Virus record (IMG/VR): IMGVR_UViG_3300025728_000017
Location: 1 to 44,329 of that record
Direction: 5' to 3' (one strand)
DNA from: a virus
DNA: 44,329 nt
A model generated the notes under the pieces. The model worked only from the letters and a program-made list of their open reading frames with translations. It was not told the origin of the DNA and did no database searches. Of the stretch, positions 4,353 to 44,329 are shown piece after piece. Position 1 is the first letter of the stretch, and the number at the start of each line of letters is the position of its first letter. The position numbers and the translations under genes are program-made.

Positions 4353-4430
4353 CAAGGAGGGCACCGTGGGAAATAGGTTGGTGCAATGAAATCTCGTTGC
4401 CGCTCCATATGGAAGCCGCCTGTCATTCAA

Positions 4431-4530
4431 TTGCACCAGAAGAAAGGCCTAGTGGTTATCCCATGTTTTCGGCCTGCGCCCGAACCAACGGTCGCCCTAC
4501 TTAACGAGCTAAGCCTTTCTTCTGGTGCAA
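4431..4530. repeat. Perfect 18-bp inverted repeat with 64-base spacer
   Basis: The left arm (4431-4448, TTGCACCAGAAGAAAGGC) and right arm (4513-4530) are exact reverse complements. The spacer has a small inner hairpin (TTCGG/CCGAA). In RNA of either strand this would form a very stable long hairpin. There is no T run after it, so it does not look like a terminator. Possible roles are a structured RNA, an RNA processing site or the relic ends of a small insertion. Confidence 0.85.
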
Positions 4531-4642
4531 CTATTCCGCATGTGCGGGCTGCGACGGGCAAACTTCTCTAGACTTGCCATGCTTTCGCGGTCGGTGGCGT
4601 TGGTTGAGCGTTGTAGGGGCCGGTGCTAATCTCCGGCTTGTA

Positions 4643-4706
4643 CGGGTGACTTATCTGACTCGCCGACTGTTCCGCTTTCGCGGTGTTCTGCCTCTGAACT
4701 AACCCG
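4643..4706 (-). pseudogene. tRNA-like remnant (Gly-type D-arm and partial acceptor stem)
   Basis: On the minus strand the text reads CGGGT, then TAGTTCAGAGGCAGAAC, which is a perfect tRNA D-arm (stem GTTC/GAAC with the GG of the loop). It ends GTCACCCG, which pairs with CGGGT as an acceptor stem would. The length (64 bases) is close to that part of a tRNA. However, the anticodon arm is replaced by CCGC-GAAA-GCGG and no T-loop (TTCRA) is present, so it cannot be a working tRNA. Confidence 0.35.
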
Positions 4707-4758
4707 ATGCCCGACTAGGCAGTGGCGCTTTAGCTGCGCATTCCCTACGACCCAAACT

Positions 4759-5310
4759 CTAGTCACTCGCATCACAAGTGTCAACAACCTTTTGCAACTC
4801 TTTTTCCAACATGCCTAACCGGTACGCTGTCAGCGCTGTGTCACGCGAGCAATTGACGACCAGGGCGCGCTGCGCCAACCGGCAATGCTGCTTGTTCCAC
4901 TTCCTGCACAATGCTTCGTCGGGGTTCTTCGTGTCGGTATGGTCGCCGTGCCAGTGCGTACCGCCTTGCACCGTGCAGTCGTAACCAAGAAGCAGGACGC
5001 GTTCTGCGCCTAGCTGAAAGGCCAGTTCGATCGCACGTAACCCACTATTGTACTCCCCATAAGCGGCGTGCAGGTTCAGAGCGTGCTTCGCCGACGCCTG
5101 ACGGGTACACGTCCACCGCTTAGGGCCATCAGGCACTTGGCTAACATTAGCATCCCACCACGCGAGATCACCTGCGTAAAGGTGATCGCACCAAGGGGCT
5201 AGCTGCCAAGAATTGTTCACGGCGATTATAGGAAGGCCGGCAGCGCGTATCATTTCGCAGTCGTGCGCGTTGAGGCTTGGGCCGGAGGCGATGCAGACGA
5301 AGGTATTCAA
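4759..5310 (-). CDS. DUF115/MAF-like protein (cargo gene)
   Basis: This is 183 residues from the ATG at 5310, with a strong AGGAGG box. The N terminus FVCIASGPSLNAHD and the later NSGLRAIELAFQLGAERVLLLGYD match the core of DUF115/motility-accessory-factor-like proteins. These have a nucleotide-sugar-binding Rossmann-type fold and are frequent in phages, where the function is not established. It is much shorter than bacterial MAF proteins and keeps only this core. It is the first gene of the three-gene block after a terminator. A link to surface glycan work is an inference from its neighbours. Confidence 0.7.
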   Translation of the reverse strand: MNTFVCIASGPSLNAHDCEMIRAAGLPIIAVNNSWQLAPWCDHLYAGDLAWWDANVSQVPDGPKRWTCTRQASAKHALNLHAAYGEYNSGLRAIELAFQLGAERVLLLGYDCTVQGGTHWHGDHTDTKNPDEALCRKWNKQHCRLAQRALVVNCSRDTALTAYRLGMLEKELQKVVDTCDASD

Positions 5311-6898: not shown

Positions 6899-7800
6899 AA
6901 CCTGACCCCTTTTGCAGGGTCGAAGGTGCTTGCGTTTTCACGAAGGTCTTTACCGTTACGTCCGGCCTTAACGACCAGGGTCCATGCATCGCTAGAACCC
7001 GGCTTGTCGGTGTTCTCTGCCTTAGTCGACGTCCACTGGCTGCCGGCCCACGTCACGTTGTCGTGAACTTCGTAGGCTTGCTCTTCGCGGTACACACCTT
7101 TGTAAATCTGGATCGGCATCGCGAACTTCTGGACGACTTCGGCGCCGCTCGATTTGGAGAGGGTAACCGAGAACTCACGATCGCCGTCCTGAGTAACCGA
7201 TACCGCCTTCAGCCCTTCCACGATGCATTCCCAACCGCGCATGCCGCTGGTCTGCTCGAAGCTGCGCCACAGGCCGCCGTCATGCTTGGCGTAGGTGTTG
7301 CGCGCGTATGTCTTGGCTTCGTCGATGGCCGGCAAGATTTCCAAGTGTAGCGCGTCGCGGCCATCTTGCGCCTGGCGCACTTGCGGAATTTCGATCAGCC
7401 CGGCAGCTGAACGCGCCAAAGCTTGAAGATCTACCGGATCAGCGTTTTTGCCCGGGATCGGTTCAGGAACGTCGACAAGCTTGGCCGCTTCCGCAGCGAG
7501 CAAAGCGATGTCGATGGTCGGCAACTGGACGAACTCAGCGGCAGCCTTCGCCAACGCTTCCAGATCAACCGGTTCAGCGTCTTTGCCGTCCTTCACTTCC
7601 GGAAGCACAACAAGAGCGGCGGCGGCTTGCGCGATAGCGCCTACGTCGATCGGTTCTGGCTCGACTGGCATCGGCCGATCGGCCAAGCACTTGCGCAGGT
7701 CTGCCAGTTCAAGATTCAGCGGTGCAACAGCCTTCGCCACCGCTGCGGCGATAACCGGCGCGAGGAATTCGGCTTGCGCTTCAAGTTCACGCAGGTTCAT
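6895..7800 (-). CDS. Repeat-containing virion protein with chitin-binding-like C terminus
   Basis: This is a 301-residue product. Residues of about 45-150 consist of imperfect repeats of the form PxDxxALAxAAAxLVxLP-GKxA, each ending near a GKD or GKN. The C-terminal part (about 230-285) reads YKGVYREEQAYEVHDNVTW, then GSQWTSTKAENTDKPG and WTLVVKAGRNGKD. This pattern resembles carbohydrate-binding modules of the chitin-binding type 3/CBM5-12 class. It overlaps the portal gene by 14 bases. Likely a head-surface or head-fibre protein, an inference from domain type and place. The repeats suggest a rod. Confidence 0.65.
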   Translation of the reverse strand: MNLRELEAQAEFLAPVIAAAVAKAVAPLNLELADLRKCLADRPMPVEPEPIDVGAIAQAAAALVVLPEVKDGKDAEPVDLEALAKAAAEFVQLPTIDIALLAAEAAKLVDVPEPIPGKNADPVDLQALARSAAGLIEIPQVRQAQDGRDALHLEILPAIDEAKTYARNTYAKHDGGLWRSFEQTSGMRGWECIVEGLKAVSVTQDGDREFSVTLSKSSGAEVVQKFAMPIQIYKGVYREEQAYEVHDNVTWAGSQWTSTKAENTDKPGSSDAWTLVVKAGRNGKDLRENASTFDPAKGVRL

Positions 7801-15762: not shown

Positions 15763-17730
15763 TCATTCTGCATTTTCTGCGTGTAGAAAAAGTACGCCGT
15801 TTTCCTCAAAAATGGCGCCTTTATCCAAAAGCGTTTCTTTTGCGCGGTTAAAAGCCTGATTCTTGTAGTTCTGTTTCTTGCTAGGATCGAACTGCGCGCA
15901 GAATTCATCATGAACCCTGGACGTTTCGACACCTGCTTTTACGTCTCCCATACCAAGCACATTATGGATGGCATCAAGTAAAGACAGCTCGTTCTTGCCT
16001 GTCTTCTTTTTGCTCTCTTCCGCAACGACTTTCCCGGGGCCTTTGAACTCGACAATACAGCTCGTAATGTCGTCTCCGTCTTCATCCTGCCCGAGCACTA
16101 CGGTGTGCAGGTTGAAGATGTAGCTCAGACCTTCTTGCCCGTCCTTCATCTTGCTAGTGGTGATGCTGCGAGTGTCTTTGCCACGCTCGACCTGAAGTTC
16201 GACATCACACGCCGCTTTGATGCTTGAGTGACCGCGTGATCCTTTTGAAGCATCCTTGCCGCTGTGGTGAACGAGAAGAACCATAGCGCCGCTACGGTGT
16301 GCCAGGCGTTTACACTGGGCGAGTGCCATGCCTACATCTTCGCCGCTGTTCTCATTGGCGCCGGCAGTTACTTGGGCGAAGGTATCCATCACGATCAGAT
16401 CGTAGGGTTCTCGCTCGCATACTTCTTTAATAAGGTCGGTGACCTGAGCTACGTCCATCAGGTTTGGCGTCACGTCGTATATGACGTCCATGCCAATCTT
16501 CTTGATCGCGTGCTGATGGGTATATGCCCTGATCCGTTGGCGGAAGCCGGATACACCTTCAGCCACGACATAGAGGACGCGACCGGCGGTAACGCGATGC
16601 CCGTTCCACGTCTCCAGGCCACGAGAGATTGCCGCGCACATGTCCAGGGTGGCGAAGGATTTGCCTGCACCGGATTCACCGAACAGGACACCCAGCATAG
16701 CTTTTGGGAGGAAACCTTTGACTAACCATTTCAGGGACGATTCTTGCGCCGCGAATTCGTCATCCGCTGTGATGCGGAACTTTCCACCTTTAGGCATCGG
16801 CAAAGCTTCGAATTCGTCAGCACTAGCGGTCTCGAAGCCGGTCTCATCGCCAGCTTCACGAATCATCTGCAGGATGGTCCCCATGGTCGTATAGTCGGCG
16901 CTGGTGTTGATACCGAACGAATTCCACTTCCCCTGGCAATATTCCTGCGAGGTGTACTTCGGGGAGTTCATCGACCATTCGTGCCAGATGTCGAAACCTT
17001 CGCCTTCCGTCTCGTGGTGCACGGCCATGCCGACGTTTCGCCAGTCCTCGTAATGCAGATCGTCAGGCAGCTTATTTAGCAGTTCGGTGATTTGCTCCGG
17101 CGACATGCCGAATGTCGGTTTGCCAGCGCCTACGCATTCAGCCCTGACCCGGGCCGCGCGCTTGAACCTAGTTCCGCAGAACGCCACCACGGCTTCGCTC
17201 ATCTGCGCTACGGTGTTCTCCGCACCTGTCAGCTCGGTCAGCTCGGTAACGTGGCCGGTAAAGGTCACGAAGCCTTTAGCGTGGAACGTCTCGAAGCCGA
17301 ACGAGCCGTCGGCCGGCGTGCTGTCTTTATGGTCCGGCGCTTCCCCGAGCACGAAGGCTCGTATGCCGTTTCCCGAGGGGCTTATCTCGGCGTATGTCCC
17401 TACCGTGAGATCTTCAACCCGTGGATCTATTACCCCGTCCTTGATGCAGTTATCGAAGTCCAGGGCAGTTACACCGAACTCCGGCATCAACGCTAGACCA
17501 ACGCCGGCGAAGTCATGTTTCTCGGCAAAGGCTTTCGCCTCATCAAACGTAACTAGGTTGGCGCGGTCTGCTTCCGAACCGTGGGTACCATTGCGCACTT
17601 TTCCGGAAACGTAATAGGGCATCTTGGAAGGCTTAGGGCTCCCCGGCTTCTGGCGCCAATGCCATACCAGCCACCCTTTTAGATCCCGCAGCGCGTCAGG
17701 CGCCCTCAAGTGCTCAAATTTCTTAGCCAT
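15763..17730 (-). CDS. Primase-helicase (PrimPol-like and RepA-like ATPase)
   Basis: This is 655 residues from the ATG at 17730. The GTG at 17745 seems to be part of its ribosome binding site, so I rejected it. Residues of about 1-165 look like a phage primase-polymerase: GVTALDFDNC (D91, D93) and TYAEISPSGNGIRAFV (112-127). Residues 210-290 match a PriCT-2 type linker (LHYEDWRNVGMAVHHE and W..WS..SPKY). Residues 335-560 are a RecA-like helicase of the RepA type with Walker A GESGAGKS (351-358) and Walker B DLIVMDTF (444-451), then LLVHHSGK. It should prime and unwind at the origin. It is transcribed opposite to the other replication genes, next to the HTH regulator. Confidence 0.9.
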   Translation of the reverse strand: MAKKFEHLRAPDALRDLKGWLVWHWRQKPGSPKPSKMPYYVSGKVRNGTHGSEADRANLVTFDEAKAFAEKHDFAGVGLALMPEFGVTALDFDNCIKDGVIDPRVEDLTVGTYAEISPSGNGIRAFVLGEAPDHKDSTPADGSFGFETFHAKGFVTFTGHVTELTELTGAENTVAQMSEAVVAFCGTRFKRAARVRAECVGAGKPTFGMSPEQITELLNKLPDDLHYEDWRNVGMAVHHETEGEGFDIWHEWSMNSPKYTSQEYCQGKWNSFGINTSADYTTMGTILQMIREAGDETGFETASADEFEALPMPKGGKFRITADDEFAAQESSLKWLVKGFLPKAMLGVLFGESGAGKSFATLDMCAAISRGLETWNGHRVTAGRVLYVVAEGVSGFRQRIRAYTHQHAIKKIGMDVIYDVTPNLMDVAQVTDLIKEVCEREPYDLIVMDTFAQVTAGANENSGEDVGMALAQCKRLAHRSGAMVLLVHHSGKDASKGSRGHSSIKAACDVELQVERGKDTRSITTSKMKDGQEGLSYIFNLHTVVLGQDEDGDDITSCIVEFKGPGKVVAEESKKKTGKNELSLLDAIHNVLGMGDVKAGVETSRVHDEFCAQFDPSKKQNYKNQAFNRAKETLLDKGAIFEENGVLFLHAENAE

Positions 17731-17748
17731 CTTTGCGGCTCCCACAGC

Positions 17749-26661: not shown

Positions 26662-26940
26662 ATGGACGTGCTGAAAAACATATCGGACTCACTGGCGGTA
26701 GAAAAAGGGATGCCGGGCATAGGCGTGGCTATTTGGCCGCGGGGTGAAAAAGTAGGGGAAAACTATCACCTTTGCTCGGTGGGGGAGTTCTTGTCCAAAC
26801 CGGAGAATCAGAAGGGAACTTGGTGCATCGACGGCGGATGGGGCGGCCCGCCCGGACCTATCATTGTCAAGTGGTCGGAGAAGGGCTACTGGATCAACGG
26901 AGGCTTCTGCGGAAGGCTGCTAACAGAAGATCATGTATGA
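26662..26940 (+). CDS. Hypothetical protein before the polymerase gene
   Basis: This is 92 residues from the ATG at 26662 (AAGGAGACGG upstream). The middle and end are rich in glycine and tryptophan (GTWCIDGGWGGPPGPIIV, KGYWINGGFCG). No family recognised. Its last bases overlap the start of the polymerase N-terminal gene (ATGA). Confidence 0.6.
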   Translation: MDVLKNISDSLAVEKGMPGIGVAIWPRGEKVGENYHLCSVGEFLSKPENQKGTWCIDGGWGGPPGPIIVKWSEKGYWINGGFCGRLLTEDHV

Positions 26941-28040
26941 ACCTCGACAAATGCATTTTCCTGGACACGGAAACCTTCTGCGAAACGCCGATCAACAACG
27001 GGACGCACCGTTACGCAGAAGGCGCCGAGATCATCATGTGGCAGTGGGCGGTCGGCGAGGGGCCTGTCGAGATTCGCGACGGGGATGAAGACATCCGCGA
27101 CTTACTCGCTTTGCTTGAGGATGAAAGTTATGAAGTGGTTATCCACAATTCGGCGTTTGATCGGAATGTCATCCGACACGCCACCGGAATCGTTATCCCC
27201 GTCGAACGAGTCTTCGACACCATGGTCTGCGCAATGGCCCATTCACTCCCAGGGAGCCTATCTACTGTTGGAACCATTCTTGGAGTCGCGCAGGACAAAG
27301 CCAAAGACAAGGAAGGTAGAACGTGGATCAGTCTTTTCTGCAAGCCTCAACCGAAGGGGCGCAAGATTCGTCGTGCGACGAAGGTTTCTCATCCGGTAGA
27401 GTGGCAGCGCTTCCGCGACTACGGCGGCCTTGACATTGAGGCGATGCGGGAGATCTACAAGAAGCTCCCGCGCTGGAACTACCGCGGTGCGGAGAAGGAA
27501 TTGTGGCACCTCGACCAGCGTATTAATGAACGCGGCGTGCTGATGGACTTAGACCTGGCGCATGCCGCTATCCGCGCTTCGGATCGTGCTCAGAAGCTAT
27601 TAGGCGCTCGGACGCAGAAGCTGACCGGCTACGTCGACGAGGAGGGTGAACTGACCGGCCAGGGTGTCGCCAGTGCCAACCAGCGCGACAAGATGCTGGA
27701 ACACATCCTGGAGGCTTACGGAGTGGGTTTGCCTGACCTTCAGATCAGCACGCTAGAGCGCCGCATCGACGATCCCGATTTGCCGGTGGAGCTGCGCGAA
27801 CTGCTGGCCGTCAGGCTCCAAGCATCGAAAACCTCGGTCAGCAAGTACAAACGCGTTCTGAACGGGGTAAGCGCCGACGGCAGGCTGCGGGGGCTTCTCG
27901 CGTTCTGTGGCGCGTTGCGCACGGGACGATGGGCGGGTCGCCTATGGCAACCTCAGAATCTTGCCCGTCCTACGATAAAGAACAAAGAAATTGAACAGTG
28001 GATTGAAGCCTTGAAGGCGGATGCCGAGGATTTGGTATGA
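26937..28040 (+). CDS. DNA polymerase A, N-terminal part (3'-5' exonuclease and thumb)
   Basis: The protein has 367 residues. The exonuclease motifs are Exo I FLDTETF (D10, E12), Exo II IHNSAFDRN (D75) and Exo III YGGLDIEAM (Y162, D166). The thumb and the beginning of the palm follow, ending with RTGRWAGRLWQPQNLARP, the R.GR...PNLQ-like template-binding element of T7-like family A enzymes. The frame stops there, before motif A. The rest is in the separate gene at 28823. The stop overlaps the start of the methyltransferase (ATGA). A typical undivided phage enzyme of this type would be around 700 residues; the two parts add up to that. Confidence 0.92.
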   Translation: MNLDKCIFLDTETFCETPINNGTHRYAEGAEIIMWQWAVGEGPVEIRDGDEDIRDLLALLEDESYEVVIHNSAFDRNVIRHATGIVIPVERVFDTMVCAMAHSLPGSLSTVGTILGVAQDKAKDKEGRTWISLFCKPQPKGRKIRRATKVSHPVEWQRFRDYGGLDIEAMREIYKKLPRWNYRGAEKELWHLDQRINERGVLMDLDLAHAAIRASDRAQKLLGARTQKLTGYVDEEGELTGQGVASANQRDKMLEHILEAYGVGLPDLQISTLERRIDDPDLPVELRELLAVRLQASKTSVSKYKRVLNGVSADGRLRGLLAFCGALRTGRWAGRLWQPQNLARPTIKNKEIEQWIEALKADAEDLV

Positions 28041-28801
28041 CGGCCTACTACAACGAATTAGACCCCTACGCAGCACAGTGGCTGCGCAACCTTATTCAAG
28101 CGGGGCACATCGCTCCAGGGATTGTGGATGAACGATCGATTGAAGATGTCCGACCTGCAGACCTCGCCGGTTTCACTCAGTGTCATTTCTTCGCAGGAAT
28201 CGGAGTTTGGTCTCTCGCGCTACGCAGAGCTGGATGGCCAGACGACCGGCCTGTGTGGACCGGCTCCTGTCCTTGCCAACCTTTCAGCAAGGCAGGCAAG
28301 AAACTTGGGTTTGATGACGAGCGGCACCTATGGCCGGACTGGTACTACCTCATCCGAGAGTGCAAACCTATCGAAGTCCTTGCAGAACAAGTTCCTGACG
28401 CTATTAAAAAAGGATGGCTTGATCTCGTTATCGACGACCTGGAAGCTTCGGCCTACGCCGTCGGGGCGATCCGTTTCGGTGCTGACGCGACAGGCGCCGG
28501 CATCGAGAGGCAAAGGATCTACCTTGCTGCCCAGTGTTTCGGCCCGGGAATGGCGCGACCGCAGCCAGGCGAACATCCTGGCATCCCTAGATCGGGGCGA
28601 TGGGGTGGCCAAGAGGATCTGCTCGCTATCGCCGGATCTCCGTTCGTCGCCGGAGGTAGTTGGCCTCAACCCCTGCTTCGCTCGGTGGCTGATGAATCTT
28701 CCTCAACAATGGGACCATTGCATGCCATCGGAAACGCCCTCAATGCTGAAGCGGCAACGTACTTCATCCGGGCGTACATGGGAATCACATGTCCTACCTG
28801 A
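28037..28801 (+). CDS. DNA (cytosine-5) methyltransferase, inserted in polymerase locus
   Basis: The protein is 254 residues. Motif I is FFAGIG (51-56), motif IV SCPCQPFSKAG with catalytic Cys80, motif VI EQV (117-119; ENV in most), motif VIII ERQRIYLA (157-164), and the C-terminal motif X is HAIGNALNAEAATYF. The target recognition region is short. The enzyme probably protects phage DNA against restriction, or acts as an orphan methylase. From 28128 on, the same DNA also codes for another protein in the +1 frame. Its start is coupled to the polymerase N-terminal gene by ATGA. Confidence 0.92.
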   Translation: MTAYYNELDPYAAQWLRNLIQAGHIAPGIVDERSIEDVRPADLAGFTQCHFFAGIGVWSLALRRAGWPDDRPVWTGSCPCQPFSKAGKKLGFDDERHLWPDWYYLIRECKPIEVLAEQVPDAIKKGWLDLVIDDLEASAYAVGAIRFGADATGAGIERQRIYLAAQCFGPGMARPQPGEHPGIPRSGRWGGQEDLLAIAGSPFVAGGSWPQPLLRSVADESSSTMGPLHAIGNALNAEAATYFIRAYMGITCPT

Positions 28802-28826
28802 ATTCCTGTACGGAGACCTCGTATGA
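28128..28826 (+). CDS. Overlapping-frame protein nested in the methyltransferase gene
   Basis: About 232 residues in the frame +1 to the methyltransferase, open across almost all of it. ANLSARQARNLGLMTSGTYG, then TTWKLRPTPSGRSVSVLTRQ, SAREWRDRSQ and LNPCFARWLMNLPQQWDHC with ETPSMLKRQRTSS. These are strongly patterned and match, from memory, a phage protein family encoded beside cytosine methylases. The stop overlaps the start of the polymerase C-terminal gene (ATGA), as expected for a translated gene. I prefer the ATG at 28128 (AGGGA upstream); 28146 (MSDLQTSP) is an alternative. The function is unknown. Confidence 0.75.
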   Translation: MNDRLKMSDLQTSPVSLSVISSQESEFGLSRYAELDGQTTGLCGPAPVLANLSARQARNLGLMTSGTYGRTGTTSSESANLSKSLQNKFLTLLKKDGLISLSTTWKLRPTPSGRSVSVLTRQAPASRGKGSTLLPSVSAREWRDRSQANILASLDRGDGVAKRICSLSPDLRSSPEVVGLNPCFARWLMNLPQQWDHCMPSETPSMLKRQRTSSGRTWESHVLPEFLYGDLV

Positions 28827-29851
28827 CCACCGTTATGGAAGCCTGCAGCAGCGCCACACGCGGCTGTGTGATCGCACCCAAGGGTAAGAAACTGGTCGTA
28901 GCTGACCTTTCCAACATTGAGGGACGTAAACTCGCCTGGCTGGCCGGCGAGGAGTGGAAGCTCCAAGCGTTCCGCGACTTCGATACGGTCATCGGATGGG
29001 ACGACAAAAAGCAGAAACCAATCCGTAAGGGTTTCGACCTTTACATCCTGGCGTATGCGAAGGCGTTCGGCTGCTCGCCGGAAGATGTCGACGATTTCAT
29101 GCGGCAGATCGGCAAGACGATGGAACTCGCGCTGGGTTATGCCGGCGGCGTGGGCGCGTTCATCACGTTCTCACTCGCCTTCAACATCGACTTGGAACTG
29201 ATGGCGAAAAACGCATGGGACGCTATCCCAGAGGCAATGCGGCGAGAAGCGCGCGACTTCATGGAATGGCAATTGAGTAAAGGAAAAAGTCAATACGGAC
29301 TTAGCGATTCCGCGTTCATCGTCTGCGAAGCCTTCAAGCGCCTTTGGCGTGAAGCGCATCCCAACACCGTAACCTACTGGAAGGAACTAGAGAACACCTG
29401 CCGCGACGCGATCAATAATCCAGGACGCACGCTGACCTGCCGCCGACACAAGATCCGCCGCGACGGCGCATGGCTTCGCATCATGCTGCCTTCCGGACGC
29501 TACCTTTGCTATCCCTCGCCGCGCGTCGAAGACGACGGTCAGATCACCTACATGGGGATCAACCAGTATTCGCGGAAGTGGGAACGGCTGCGCACCTACT
29601 CTGGCAAGCTAGCGGAAAACGTGACTCAGGCCAGTGCTCGGGACGTGTTGGCGTATCGCATGCCGGATATCGAGAAAGCCGGTTACGAAATCGTTCTGAC
29701 CGTCCACGACGAGATCATCAGCGAAGCGCCAGACACCGACGAGTACACGCACGAACACCTGGCCGAACTGATGTCCGCAGGTTGCGGCTGGACAGAAGGC
29801 CTACCGCTCGCCGCTGCCGGCTTCGAAGCGTATCGCTACCGGAAAGGTTGA
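28823..29851 (+). CDS. DNA polymerase A, C-terminal part (palm and fingers)
   Basis: The protein has 342 residues. It starts TTVMEACSSATRGCVIAPKG, then motif A VVADLSNIEGR (25-35), motif B RQIGKTMELALGYAGG (94-109, with the conserved R, K and Y), and motif C TVHDEII (about 293-299). All catalytic residues are thus in this part. With the protein at 26937 it makes a complete family A polymerase. Since thumb and exonuclease are in the other chain, the two must bind each other. The start is coupled to the overlapping-frame gene. A promoter-like sequence begins at the stop codon. Confidence 0.92.
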   Translation: MTTVMEACSSATRGCVIAPKGKKLVVADLSNIEGRKLAWLAGEEWKLQAFRDFDTVIGWDDKKQKPIRKGFDLYILAYAKAFGCSPEDVDDFMRQIGKTMELALGYAGGVGAFITFSLAFNIDLELMAKNAWDAIPEAMRREARDFMEWQLSKGKSQYGLSDSAFIVCEAFKRLWREAHPNTVTYWKELENTCRDAINNPGRTLTCRRHKIRRDGAWLRIMLPSGRYLCYPSPRVEDDGQITYMGINQYSRKWERLRTYSGKLAENVTQASARDVLAYRMPDIEKAGYEIVLTVHDEIISEAPDTDEYTHEHLAELMSAGCGWTEGLPLAAAGFEAYRYRKG

Positions 29852-41616: not shown

Positions 41617-42158
41617 TAGGAGTTCTCCAGATAAAAAGGTGAGCCGTCTTCGAGAAGCATTGGTGTGCCGTCCTCAAGCAGCATTTGAACAACGGAGCCC
41701 TGATCGAACAAAGGCCATTCGCGGTTCATAGCGTAATCGAAAATCTCCGGGTTCAACACAAACGAGGGTAGCAATTCGACCCACCCTGGCGGTAGCAGTG
41801 CTCTGTTACGCAATTCGCACGTAGTTCGGTAGCGCCAAAGGAATTTCCCAGTCAGCTCACCGCCCACGGGGACTTCGGTAAACCGGATCTCATGCTCGTT
41901 ATACCCCATCGGACTCAACAGCGTCATCGTGAACCAGCCGGCGCCTACAACCTGCGCGGCCCACGCTTCGAACAACATGGCCTGTGGTCCGGTCATGATC
42001 CAGCTAAGCGACACCATGGCCGGCGCGTTAGGGAACTCTATCCGCTGGCGAGCACGCCCGCTATCCATCGGCGTACGCCGGATATTATTGACCGGCGTGA
42101 ACCCGTAGTTCTCCCGCAGCGGGCAGGGCAGCCCTTCCGGATAGACTGGAATCGCCAT
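41616..42158 (-). CDS. Minor tail protein after the tape measure
   Basis: This 180-residue protein starts MAIPVYPEGLPCPLRENYGF and has SLSWIMTGPQAMLFEAWAAQ, then GAGWFTMTLLSPMGYNEHE: the pattern of phage minor tail proteins that follow the tape measure (distal tail/gpM position). The C terminus has two direct copies of a MLLEDG(T/S)P element followed by FYLENS, a repeat seen in tail proteins that carry fibre contacts. Its ATG overlaps the tape measure stop (TGATG). Confidence 0.75.
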   Translation of the reverse strand: MAIPVYPEGLPCPLRENYGFTPVNNIRRTPMDSGRARQRIEFPNAPAMVSLSWIMTGPQAMLFEAWAAQVVGAGWFTMTLLSPMGYNEHEIRFTEVPVGGELTGKFLWRYRTTCELRNRALLPPGWVELLPSFVLNPEIFDYAMNREWPLFDQGSVVQMLLEDGTPMLLEDGSPFYLENS

Positions 42159-44329
42159 CAGCGGCCCACCGTCTGTAGTCCGTACTTGCGTTCGAAGGCT
42201 TGCGCGGTTTTACCGTCGCCGAACAGGTCCGCCACAAAAACGTCCAATTGCTCTTCCCCATTTGGGCCCGTGCGAGTTTCTCTCTCGCCAGCGCGATCCG
42301 GATTCTCGATCAAGTTTACCGTAGTGTTGCTCTTCCCGGTTGGCGATTTCATATCGTTTAGCGTTTTGTCCAGCTTAGCGCTGGTCTGTGCCGTGGTCAC
42401 GCGCTCCCCTTTCTGGAGCAGCCAGGTGCCTGTCTGCGGCACAGAATCGATACCGTCGTGCGCCATACCGGCTATGCCTGCGATACTAGCGGACAAGCCG
42501 CCTGCGAAGGCCAGGGCGGATGCCGCAGCGGCTGGTGCGGCGACAGGTCCGACGACGGGGATCGCAGCAGTGGACGAGAACGCGTTCAGGCCAGCAGAGA
42601 TAGCTTGCGCCGCAGCGTACTGGATCAGCATTTTTAAAGCGGTCTGCGCGAAGCTGGCGGCCAGGTCTTTGAAGGACAGTTTCCCTGTTGTCACGAAGTT
42701 ATACAGCGCGTCCGTCAAGCCGCTGAAAGCGCCATCGAAAAGTGTTTGGGTTTGCGCGGCTACGTCCGTCGCTTCCGTCAGGTAATTGTTCCACGATTCA
42801 GAGGCGCCGAGGAAGAACGAACCGGACGCTTCGTCGACCTGATTGTAATAGTCCTGCTGCAGCACCAAACGGGCGGCCAGTGCTTCCTCTAAGATGTCGG
42901 TCTCTTGTTGATACAGGTCTTCGCTGATCTGACCTTTGTTCAGTTGGGCGTTCAGCTTGTCGAGTTCGGACTGGTACTCCTTGCGGATCGCCAAGTCTTC
43001 TTTCAACCGCTCGCGCAGCTTCTCGCCGGAGCCCAGTCCGGCCAGTTGCGAGTCTAGGCCCTCTTGCGCGCTTTGCAGCTTCGATGCTTGGTTCTCTTGG
43101 AACGCGGCCAGCTTGCCGGCTTCCTCTGTCGCCTGCTTACGCGCGGCGACTTCCTGCTCAAGCGCTACGTTGCGTTTGAGCTGGGCGGTGATCAGCGCTT
43201 CGCTTGCCAGGAGCGACTTCTGGTCAGCAGTTTGAATGTCCTTCGACTTGATGTCGGCAATTTCTTGCTGAAACTTCGCTAGAGCTTGCGCCTGGGTGCC
43301 GAGCTTTTCGCTGGTCTCCGATTGGAGCTGAAGTGCGGCGGCCTGCTGACGCAAGCTGTCGAGCATCTTCTGGCCGGCGTCTTCACGAACGGCTTTAACC
43401 TTCGGCGCAGCGGCGGCTTTGTATTGCTCTTCAGCGGCCTTACGCAACTGGGCGATCTGCGCTTCGCTGTACTGAACTCCACGGGCCGCCGCCGCGGCGA
43501 CCTGCTTATCGATTTCTGCGAAACGCTTAGCGAGCTTGTCGGTCTTCGGTGCCGTTTCGTCCAGGGACTTGTTCAAGGCTTCGACGGCGGCTATGCCGCG
43601 TTTGTCCTGTGCGACAACGTTCGCCTGAACAGCGGCGCGCTTGCGGCTCTCTTCCTGTTGCACGAGCAAATCGGTGATCTGTCGTTCTGTAGCTTCGCGC
43701 CGGAAATCATCGCCTGGGGTGGCGCCGAACCCACTGCCCGGGGCGTTGTTGATCGCGTCGGCGTTGGCGATGTCCTGCAGCCGATCGTTCAGGGTTTTGA
43801 GTTTCTGCTCGAGCGTAGACTCACGCCCGATATCAAGGAACGCGTCCCACGCTTCCTTGGCGGCGTTCTTCACCGTCAGCCACGCCGACTCGACGTACCC
43901 GAGGTTGTCGCGTACACGATCGGCACGGGTGGTCAGGGCTTCAGCGTAAGCCTGTTCGGCCAGGTTGGCGGCGCCCTGCGCATCACCTTGACGTTGCAAC
44001 GCTTCGATCTGTGCGTAGGTCGAAGTGGTCAGGTAGTTCAGGGAATCGTTCAGCTCTTTCGAGAACTTGACCGGATCCTTCGCCAGTTTCTCGAAATCCT
44101 TGACGGTCTCTTCAGCCGCTTTGCCGGTCGCCTCCTGCATCTTCAGCGCGGCGATAGCGATGCTGTCGAACGAGGATGCAGGGATCTTCCCGGAGGCCGC
44201 CAGTTGCGCTAAGACGGCTGCGGCAGCACCGACAGTACCAACGGACTGGCTTACCGACTGCGCTTGACTGGCTAAGGCGTCCGCGTTCGTCCCGGCTGCG
44301 TTGCCGTTCAGGATCAGCGCGTTGGTGAA
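42158..44329 (-). CDS. Tail tape measure protein, C-terminal part (begins at 739)
   Basis: This is the end of the 927-residue tape measure protein (see 1-739). The part here holds long coiled coils (EEYKAAAAPK..., then LQAAALQLQSETSEKLG and AKFQQEIADIKS, split), a hydrophobic segment (ALAFAGGLSASIAGIAGMAH) and the C-terminal element GTWLLQKGERVTTAQTSAKL, typical of lambda gpH-like tape measures. At roughly 0.15 nm of tail per residue, a tail of about 140 nm is expected. Bases 44203-44329 repeat 1-127. Confidence 0.93.
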   Translation of the reverse strand, partial: FTNALILNGNAAGTNADALASQAQSVSQSVGTVGAAAAVLAQLAASGKIPASSFDSIAIAALKMQEATGKAAEETVKDFEKLAKDPVKFSKELNDSLNYLTTSTYAQIEALQRQGDAQGAANLAEQAYAEALTTRADRVRDNLGYVESAWLTVKNAAKEAWDAFLDIGRESTLEQKLKTLNDRLQDIANADAINNAPGSGFGATPGDDFRREATERQITDLLVQQEESRKRAAVQANVVAQDKRGIAAVEALNKSLDETAPKTDKLAKRFAEIDKQVAAAAARGVQYSEAQIAQLRKAAEEQYKAAAAPKVKAVREDAGQKMLDSLRQQAAALQLQSETSEKLGTQAQALAKFQQEIADIKSKDIQTADQKSLLASEALITAQLKRNVALEQEVAARKQATEEAGKLAAFQENQASKLQSAQEGLDSQLAGLGSGEKLRERLKEDLAIRKEYQSELDKLNAQLNKGQISEDLYQQETDILEEALAARLVLQQDYYNQVDEASGSFFLGASESWNNYLTEATDVAAQTQTLFDGAFSGLTDALYNFVTTGKLSFKDLAASFAQTALKMLIQYAAAQAISAGLNAFSSTAAIPVVGPVAAPAAAASALAFAGGLSASIAGIAGMAHDGIDSVPQTGTWLLQKGERVTTAQTSAKLDKTLNDMKSPTGKSNTTVNLIENPDRAGERETRTGPNGEEQLDVFVADLFGDGKTAQAFERKYGLQTVGR
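44203..44329. repeat. Terminal overlap, right copy
   Basis: The last 127 bases are identical to bases 1-127. The same codons of the tape measure gene are read in both copies. It should be trimmed for any gene or length count. Confidence 0.95.

Follow-up and report, generated by a model that had tools for sequence, protein, structure and literature searches.

Comparison of the IMG/VR record IMGVR_UViG_3300025728_000017, a single metagenomic contig (positions 1 to 44,329, hereafter the window), with its relatives revealed that the family A (Pol I type) DNA polymerase of this phage is encoded as two genes, which are separated by a cytosine methyltransferase locus. The explanation we hold to be probable, given the sequence relationships, is an old gene fission that translational coupling made tolerable and that was later used for cargo and recombination. 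With moderate confidence we further propose that the replicative family A polymerase of one clade of uncultured phages may exist as one, two or three polypeptides, with the first joint serving as a standing dock for exchange of methyltransferase and HNH genes and for reassortment of the exonuclease (exo) and polymerase (pol) halves, that the fission was reversed at least once, and that the motif A and motif C aspartates lie on different chains in some members. The features of the locus, where alpha and beta denote the two overlapping cargo frames, are:

26937..28040, plus strand: polymerase chain 1 (367 amino acids), with the 3'-5' exonuclease, the thumb and the RTGR/NLARP palm element, from Pfam and PHROG matches and alignment with intact polymerases.
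28024..28040, plus strand: first joint, a Shine-Dalgarno (SD)-like GAGG within the EDLV codons followed by the ATGA stop/start; cargo-free joints are arranged alike.
28037..28801, plus strand: cargo alpha frame, a C5 cytosine methyltransferase (254 amino acids) with motifs I, IV, VI, VIII and X, from profiles and alignments with M.HhaI and the family.
28122..28826, plus strand: cargo beta frame, overlapping alpha, with a probable start at ATG 28128 (phrog_1008, E 2e-14; phrog_31772, E 5e-9).
28810..28826, plus strand: second side of the joint, an SD-like GGAG, GACCTCGT and the ATGA stop/start of chain 2, common to unrelated cargo types.
28823..29851, plus strand: polymerase chain 2 (342 amino acids), palm and fingers with motifs A, B and C, from Pfam and PHROG matches and alignment with intact polymerases.

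The positions and order of the two polymerase genes agree with those of an earlier reading of this DNA (the original prediction). Chain 1 matches Pfam DNA_pol_A_exo1 (PF01612, E 3e-6) and positions 670-989 of the phrog_17 DNA polymerase profile, while chain 2 matches Pfam DNA_pol_A (PF00476, E 2e-12) and phrog_17 positions 994-1232, directly continuing the stretch covered by chain 1. A search against phage polymerases found intact relatives that continue through the join, and the two chains jointly align end to end with the intact polymerases of Bordetella phage BPP-1, Burkholderia phage BcepC6B and Yersinia phage YeP5, at 54-63% identity per half. As predicted, the break falls between the R.GR...NLARP element and motif A, with RTGR/NLARP on chain 1 and motifs A, B and C on chain 2. 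No polymerase sequence was lost there, since EDLV/MTTVMEA in the window maps onto the continuous DLLFANVMEL of the intact enzymes.

Both halves were found in 181 distinct loci, collected by scans of viral contigs and genomes and from phage genome records; of these, 146 are in frame throughout and 35, the window included, are split. A tree of the concatenated halves was made when the collection stood at 108 loci (103 with both halves well covered, 77 used after removal of near-copies). In this tree the split forms make up one clade, with a Shimodaira-Hasegawa approximate likelihood ratio (SH-aLRT) support of 100, and L220 is the sole intact row inside it. The polymerase genes of L220 and L221 (6001-8064) are joined in frame by a GGP linker that occurs in no other intact relative; with L220 nested in the split clade, this reads as a re-fusion, and thus as a reversal of the fission. 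Parsimony requires two changes of split state on the exo tree and two on the pol tree. A single fission, at the root of one phage clade, is the most likely history. Those loci of the named-genome collection that entered the tree are all intact, so the split clade has no known host. Three extra viral scans, using three-chain, basal and re-fused queries, added a single new split locus (L273), which suggests that the clade is almost fully sampled in IMG/VR.

The original prediction held that the polymerase had been split by the methyltransferase locus, and this claim fails, as the same split is found without cargo or with unrelated cargo. Cargo is present at the joint in 25 of the 35 split loci and absent from the other 10. 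The two genes overlap directly by ATGA, with nothing between them, in L011, L012, L013, L015, L022, L108, L207 and L273, and the joints of L018 (TGATG) and L234 (TAATG) are likewise empty. The occupants of the remaining joints, typed by profile for one member of each main type and by sequence similarity for the rest, are:

C5 methyltransferase pair: the window, L008 and L041.
N6_N4 methyltransferase: L007, L072, L203 and L231.
Second N6_N4 methyltransferase type: L010 and L219.
phrog_757 methyltransferase: L024, L195, L201, L212 and L233.
HNH endonuclease with NUMOD4: L014 and L017.
HNH endonuclease with AP2: L020, L195, L196, L204 and L218.
phrog_12600: L016 and L026.
phrog_839: L019.
Open reading frames (ORFs) of 34 or 40 codons: L210 and L213.

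In L201 the phrog_757 match has no listed full-length frame, in L195 the HNH gene follows phrog_757, and a DUF7220 gene precedes the cargo in L024 and L041. The occupant is labile, with at least 23 changes of cargo state on the pol tree (38 rows) and at least 24 on the exo tree (37 rows). For example, the pol half of the window is 96% identical to that of L072, whose cargo is an N6/N4 methyltransferase. The split is shared by close relatives whose joint is empty (L011, L012, L013, L015, L022) or differently occupied (L072), so the fission predates the methyltransferase of the window, which on the evidence of these relatives is the current occupant of the joint and not the cause of the split.

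One possible alternative is that the methyltransferase, or an earlier homing endonuclease, was inserted into the gene and caused the split, and that the cargo-free relatives have since lost the insert. HNH endonucleases with NUMOD4 or AP2 do stand at the joint in several members, and homing endonucleases split other phage genes (PMC2988022); a Pfam and PHROG profile search found no homing endonuclease at the joint of the window. Insertion by the C5 pair is contradicted by the tree, in which the window is surrounded by members with empty joints or other cargo. Against insertion by an HNH gene, the basal members lack one, carrying nothing, phrog_12600 or the 34- and 40-codon ORFs, although the fast turnover of cargo makes this say little. 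We consider an insertion-first origin unlikely.

The sequence of the joint suggests how fission could have been tolerated. Intact DL(V/L)F(D/E)NVM and split DLV-stop/M(T/S)xVM differ by a net loss of one base that creates ATGA. In our proposal for a BPP-1-type replicative polymerase made as two separately translated chains, this loss would turn DL(V/L)F(D/E)N-VME into DLV-stop/M(T/S)xVME and place ATGA beside an SD-like GAGG already contained in EDLV. Ribosomes finishing chain 1 could then restart on chain 2, so that the break would cost little. The joint would become a tolerated point of insertion and recombination, at which mostly methyltransferase and HNH cassettes enter, leave and replace each other and across which the exo and pol halves reassort. 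Recombination within the flanking halves, to which HNH homing might contribute, may be what moves the cassettes, and the cargo methyltransferases may shield phage DNA from host restriction.

Several features of the joints are consistent with reinitiation, for which putative sites are GAGGATTTGGTATGA and GGAGACCTCGTATGA. ATGA overlaps are present at 26937, 28037 and 28823, as had been noted; the statement that all joints are 4-base ATGA overlaps does not extend to the methyltransferase and its overlapping gene, which form a long nested overlap (28037-28801 versus 28122-28826). The view that the gene order suits coupled translation is borne out by these overlaps, with the coupling itself predicted from the letters. 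Across the clade, chain 2 starts with ATGA in 25 of 25 cargo loci, chain 1 ends with ATGA in 17 of the 25, and an SD-like motif precedes the chain 2 start in 32 of the 35 split loci. Unrelated cargo proteins terminate in GDLV, RDLV or ADLV, resembling the EDLV end of chain 1. Relatives of beta located elsewhere are mostly without the DLV tail, and two copies outside the joint (L108 and L156) retain it. Most simply, each cassette would carry at its far side a repeat of the chain 1 end, including the SD-like GAGG and the ATGA.

A single polymerase could in principle still be produced from such loci. Programmed -1 frameshifting at the ATGA joint would yield a fused polymerase in cargo-free members, where chain 2 does lie in the -1 frame relative to chain 1, and a second break described below is likewise a -1 step. 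However, no slippery heptamer was seen, L018 and L234 have TGATG and TAATG in place of ATGA, and frameshifting is impossible across the 300-1250 bases of cargo in other members, window included, which makes this explanation very unlikely. Less credible still is restoration of one polypeptide by an intein, a split intein or a group I intron. Other sites of the pol half do carry inteins in two relatives (L024, L108), and phage polymerases with split inteins have been described (PMC6892783), but at this joint chain 1 ends 4 residues beyond the conserved join and chain 2 begins at the join, leaving no space for a splicing domain. No intein splicing domain was found at the joint, the chain ends of the window having no extra domain; the window locus and 11 relatives (12 loci) gave no Rfam match for a group I intron above the gathering score; and cargo-free joints have no spare bases. 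The split thus lies at the level of the gene, without intein or intron, as originally predicted.

The exo and pol halves have been swapped between lineages, as judged from the discordant histories of the two data sets. With exo data the window groups with L195 and L196 (support 100/98), whereas pol data reject this group in the approximately unbiased (AU) test (p-AU 2e-121) and place the window with L072. The AU test of the window with L072 on exo data is not significant (p 0.09), so the case for swapping rests on rejection of the exo grouping by pol data. The identities of the exo and pol halves are correlated with a Pearson coefficient of 0.59 in split loci versus 0.78 in intact relatives, two sets that differ in sampling depth.

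Both polymerase chains retain the residues expected of a working enzyme. The split members covered by the alignment all keep exonuclease D10, E12, D75, Y162 and D166 as well as R331, and none of them differs in motif A, the arginine of RTGR or the aspartate of motif C. The window has every catalytic residue of exo I-III and motifs A, B and C, and these are conserved in split and intact relatives, in line with the earlier claim that all motif residues are kept. In two rows of the residue alignment some positions of motifs B and C differ; since RQIGK and VHDE are in fact present in L108, we attribute the differences, short of a row-by-row check, to inteins and frame breaks disturbing a query-anchored alignment. 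Both chains are under purifying selection, judged from the median ratio of nonsynonymous to synonymous substitution (dN/dS) for pairs within the split clade, about 0.10 in chain 1 and about 0.13 in chain 2. The break itself could be taken as the mark of a broken, decaying gene, but a dN/dS near 0.1 in both chains across the clade, the conserved catalytic residues and the in-frame re-fusion in one lineage make decay highly improbable. The chance of an assembly or sequencing artefact, which the origin of the window in a single metagenomic contig might raise, is negligible, since 34 further distinct loci, drawn from many metagenomes, show this joint too, and their coding overlaps are exact.

A structure model of the re-fused relative L220, which is about 74% identical to each window chain, has a predicted local distance difference test (pLDDT) score of 92.8 and matches the Klenow, phage G20c and phiVC8 polymerases. 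The join, at about residues 351-361, is modelled as a coil between helices 339-350 and 362-373, and in this model is a permissive place for a cut. From the model, and by analogy with gp43A/B of phage 25 and NrdA of phage Aeh1, we infer that the separate chains assemble into an active enzyme.

Some points weigh against the proposed history. A one-base change and an insertion that was later lost are not told apart as the first event. On the pol half by itself, the intact outgroups come to lie next to the basal split members, with modest support, and the two are not firmly separated, which makes a single fission likely but not proven. Selection on ribosome sites, as well as duplication, may account for the DLV tails that cargo genes share; as such selection would favour similar letters, duplication of the joint end is not proven. 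Assembly and activity of the chains, finally, are argued from the model and the analogues named above.

A second break is found in seven split members, L108, L201, L203, L207, L212 and L233, which form one subclade of the pol tree, and separately L213. In these, chain 2 ends in MPRIE(A/T)WRP and a stop just before motif C, and VTVHDE and the C-terminus lie in another frame, so that motif A and motif C are, by their reading frames, on different chains. The ATG of the third frame lies inside the overlap, with an in-frame stop just upstream, in L207 and L212 (the latter read on its near copy L223), and the start in L213 would be GTG. When mapped by eye, the second break falls at about residue 630 of L220, after helix 606-631 and before the motif C hairpin. 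This break and the intein-like insertions of chain 2 are located as follows:

L207, 4465-5582: second break, MPRIEAWRP-stop / METVKQF...VTVHDE.
L024, 6001-7905: intein-like insertion in chain 2, starting with Cys and ending VHN/Cys, with an HNH-like endonuclease frame (6968-7639) nested in another reading frame.
L108, 3956-5767: second intein-like insertion, at another chain 2 site, with a nested endonuclease-looking frame (4429-5184).

The chain 2 frames of L203 and L233 (615 and 602 amino acids) are also long enough for an intein-like insertion. The insertion in the methylase of phage ShiLan hides an out-of-frame HNH (PMC11855218), and there too, as for the L024 and L108 inteins, the HNH frame sits within an inserted stretch that stays open in the frame of the host gene. 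Insertions of the L024/L108 type differ in lying away from the joint and are absent from the window.

The cargo of the window itself is probably more elaborate than the complete C5 methyltransferase with an overlapping gene of the original prediction. Motifs I, IV, VI, VIII and X are indeed found in alpha (Pfam DNA_methylase, E 6e-13; phrog_363, E 3e-66) as FAGIG, PCQPFS (motif IV, PCQ), EQV, RQR and GNAL, with VI, VIII and X read by eye, but a segment resembling motif IX lies in the overlapping frame. This is the C-terminal segment of beta, LNPCFARWLMNLPQQW, whose LNP...RWLM.LP..W was likened to motif IX by eye without a confirming profile match, and whose final residues, YGDLV, carry the joint sequence. 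The beta frame stays open in 40, 0 and 4 of 2000 synonymous shufflings of alpha at the three joint loci. Its relatives occur in 49 phage records, part of the similarity being due to shared DNA, and it has no match in the PDB. Among phage and plasmid collections the only DNA-level relative of the window is a 71.8% match of the methyltransferase region to Pseudomonas phage LPPA33, with none in plasmids; LPPA33 is represented in the alpha alignment by its beta frame, a row that is uninformative there. The two genes of M.EcoHK31I overlap in different frames. Its large chain holds most motifs and its small chain motif IX (PMC3404938), a division that alpha and beta resemble, going by the published description and a motif IX read by eye. 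A conserved beta frame that is kept open and carries a motif IX-like segment, together with this division in M.EcoHK31I, makes it probable that both enzymes of the locus consist of two chains. C5 pairs also occur outside the joint in L156 (6001-7000, on the L013 contig) and L108 (6001-6934), where beta keeps its YGDLV end, as though the pair had come from the joint. In BcepC6B (L003, 814-1845) the intact polymerase is closely preceded by a C5 methyltransferase gene, in a region that also has a beta frame, ending in ADLA with ATGA.

Comparable arrangements are known from other phages. The Methylophilales phages MEP401 and MEP402 (OP830906) have a split family A polymerase with a small gene between the parts (PMC10580990); the first gene holds the exonuclease and N-terminal part, the next runs from motif A onward, and the break is in the same linker, from RTGR...NLQN to motif A. 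Their polymerase is distant and their phage group (Zobellviridae) unrelated, so the split is independent; a single small ORF lies between the genes, and cargo exchange, re-fusion and a third chain are not described there. In Aeromonas phages 25 and 44RR, gp43 is split into 43A and 43B, and phage Aeh1 has a split NrdA, with chains that co-purify and are active according to a review (PMC2988022). These are likewise essential phage enzymes made as two chains, their joints occupied by a homing endonuclease or a spacer, but they are a family B polymerase and a ribonucleotide reductase, and the joints hold seg/mob endonucleases or an untranslated spacer and not methyltransferases. The intact BPP-1 type (Bbp42 and relatives) shares the family, the domain order and a neighbourhood with an ssDNA-binding protein and a helicase, and differs in being one continuous gene with the join DLLF(D/E)NVME. 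Searches of the open-licence literature turned up no family A polymerase described as having a joint that exchanges cargo, a re-fusion or a third chain.

The series of one-, two- and three-chain and re-fused forms offers a natural test of how a replicative polymerase tolerates cutting, and the clade supplies candidate parts for split polymerases. Fission may make an essential gene a cargo site, where careless deletion of the site would harm the phage and exchange through the conserved halves would be easy. Automatic annotation would label such polymerases truncated or broken.

Other genes of the window give some indication of the phage that carries this locus:

15763-17745, minus strand: primase/helicase-like protein.
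42158-44140, minus strand: tape measure protein.

The replication genes resemble those of BPP-1, and the structural genes include the tape measure protein, which contradicts a podophage label for this phage. The window thereby mixes BPP-1-like replication genes with structural genes of long-tailed phages.

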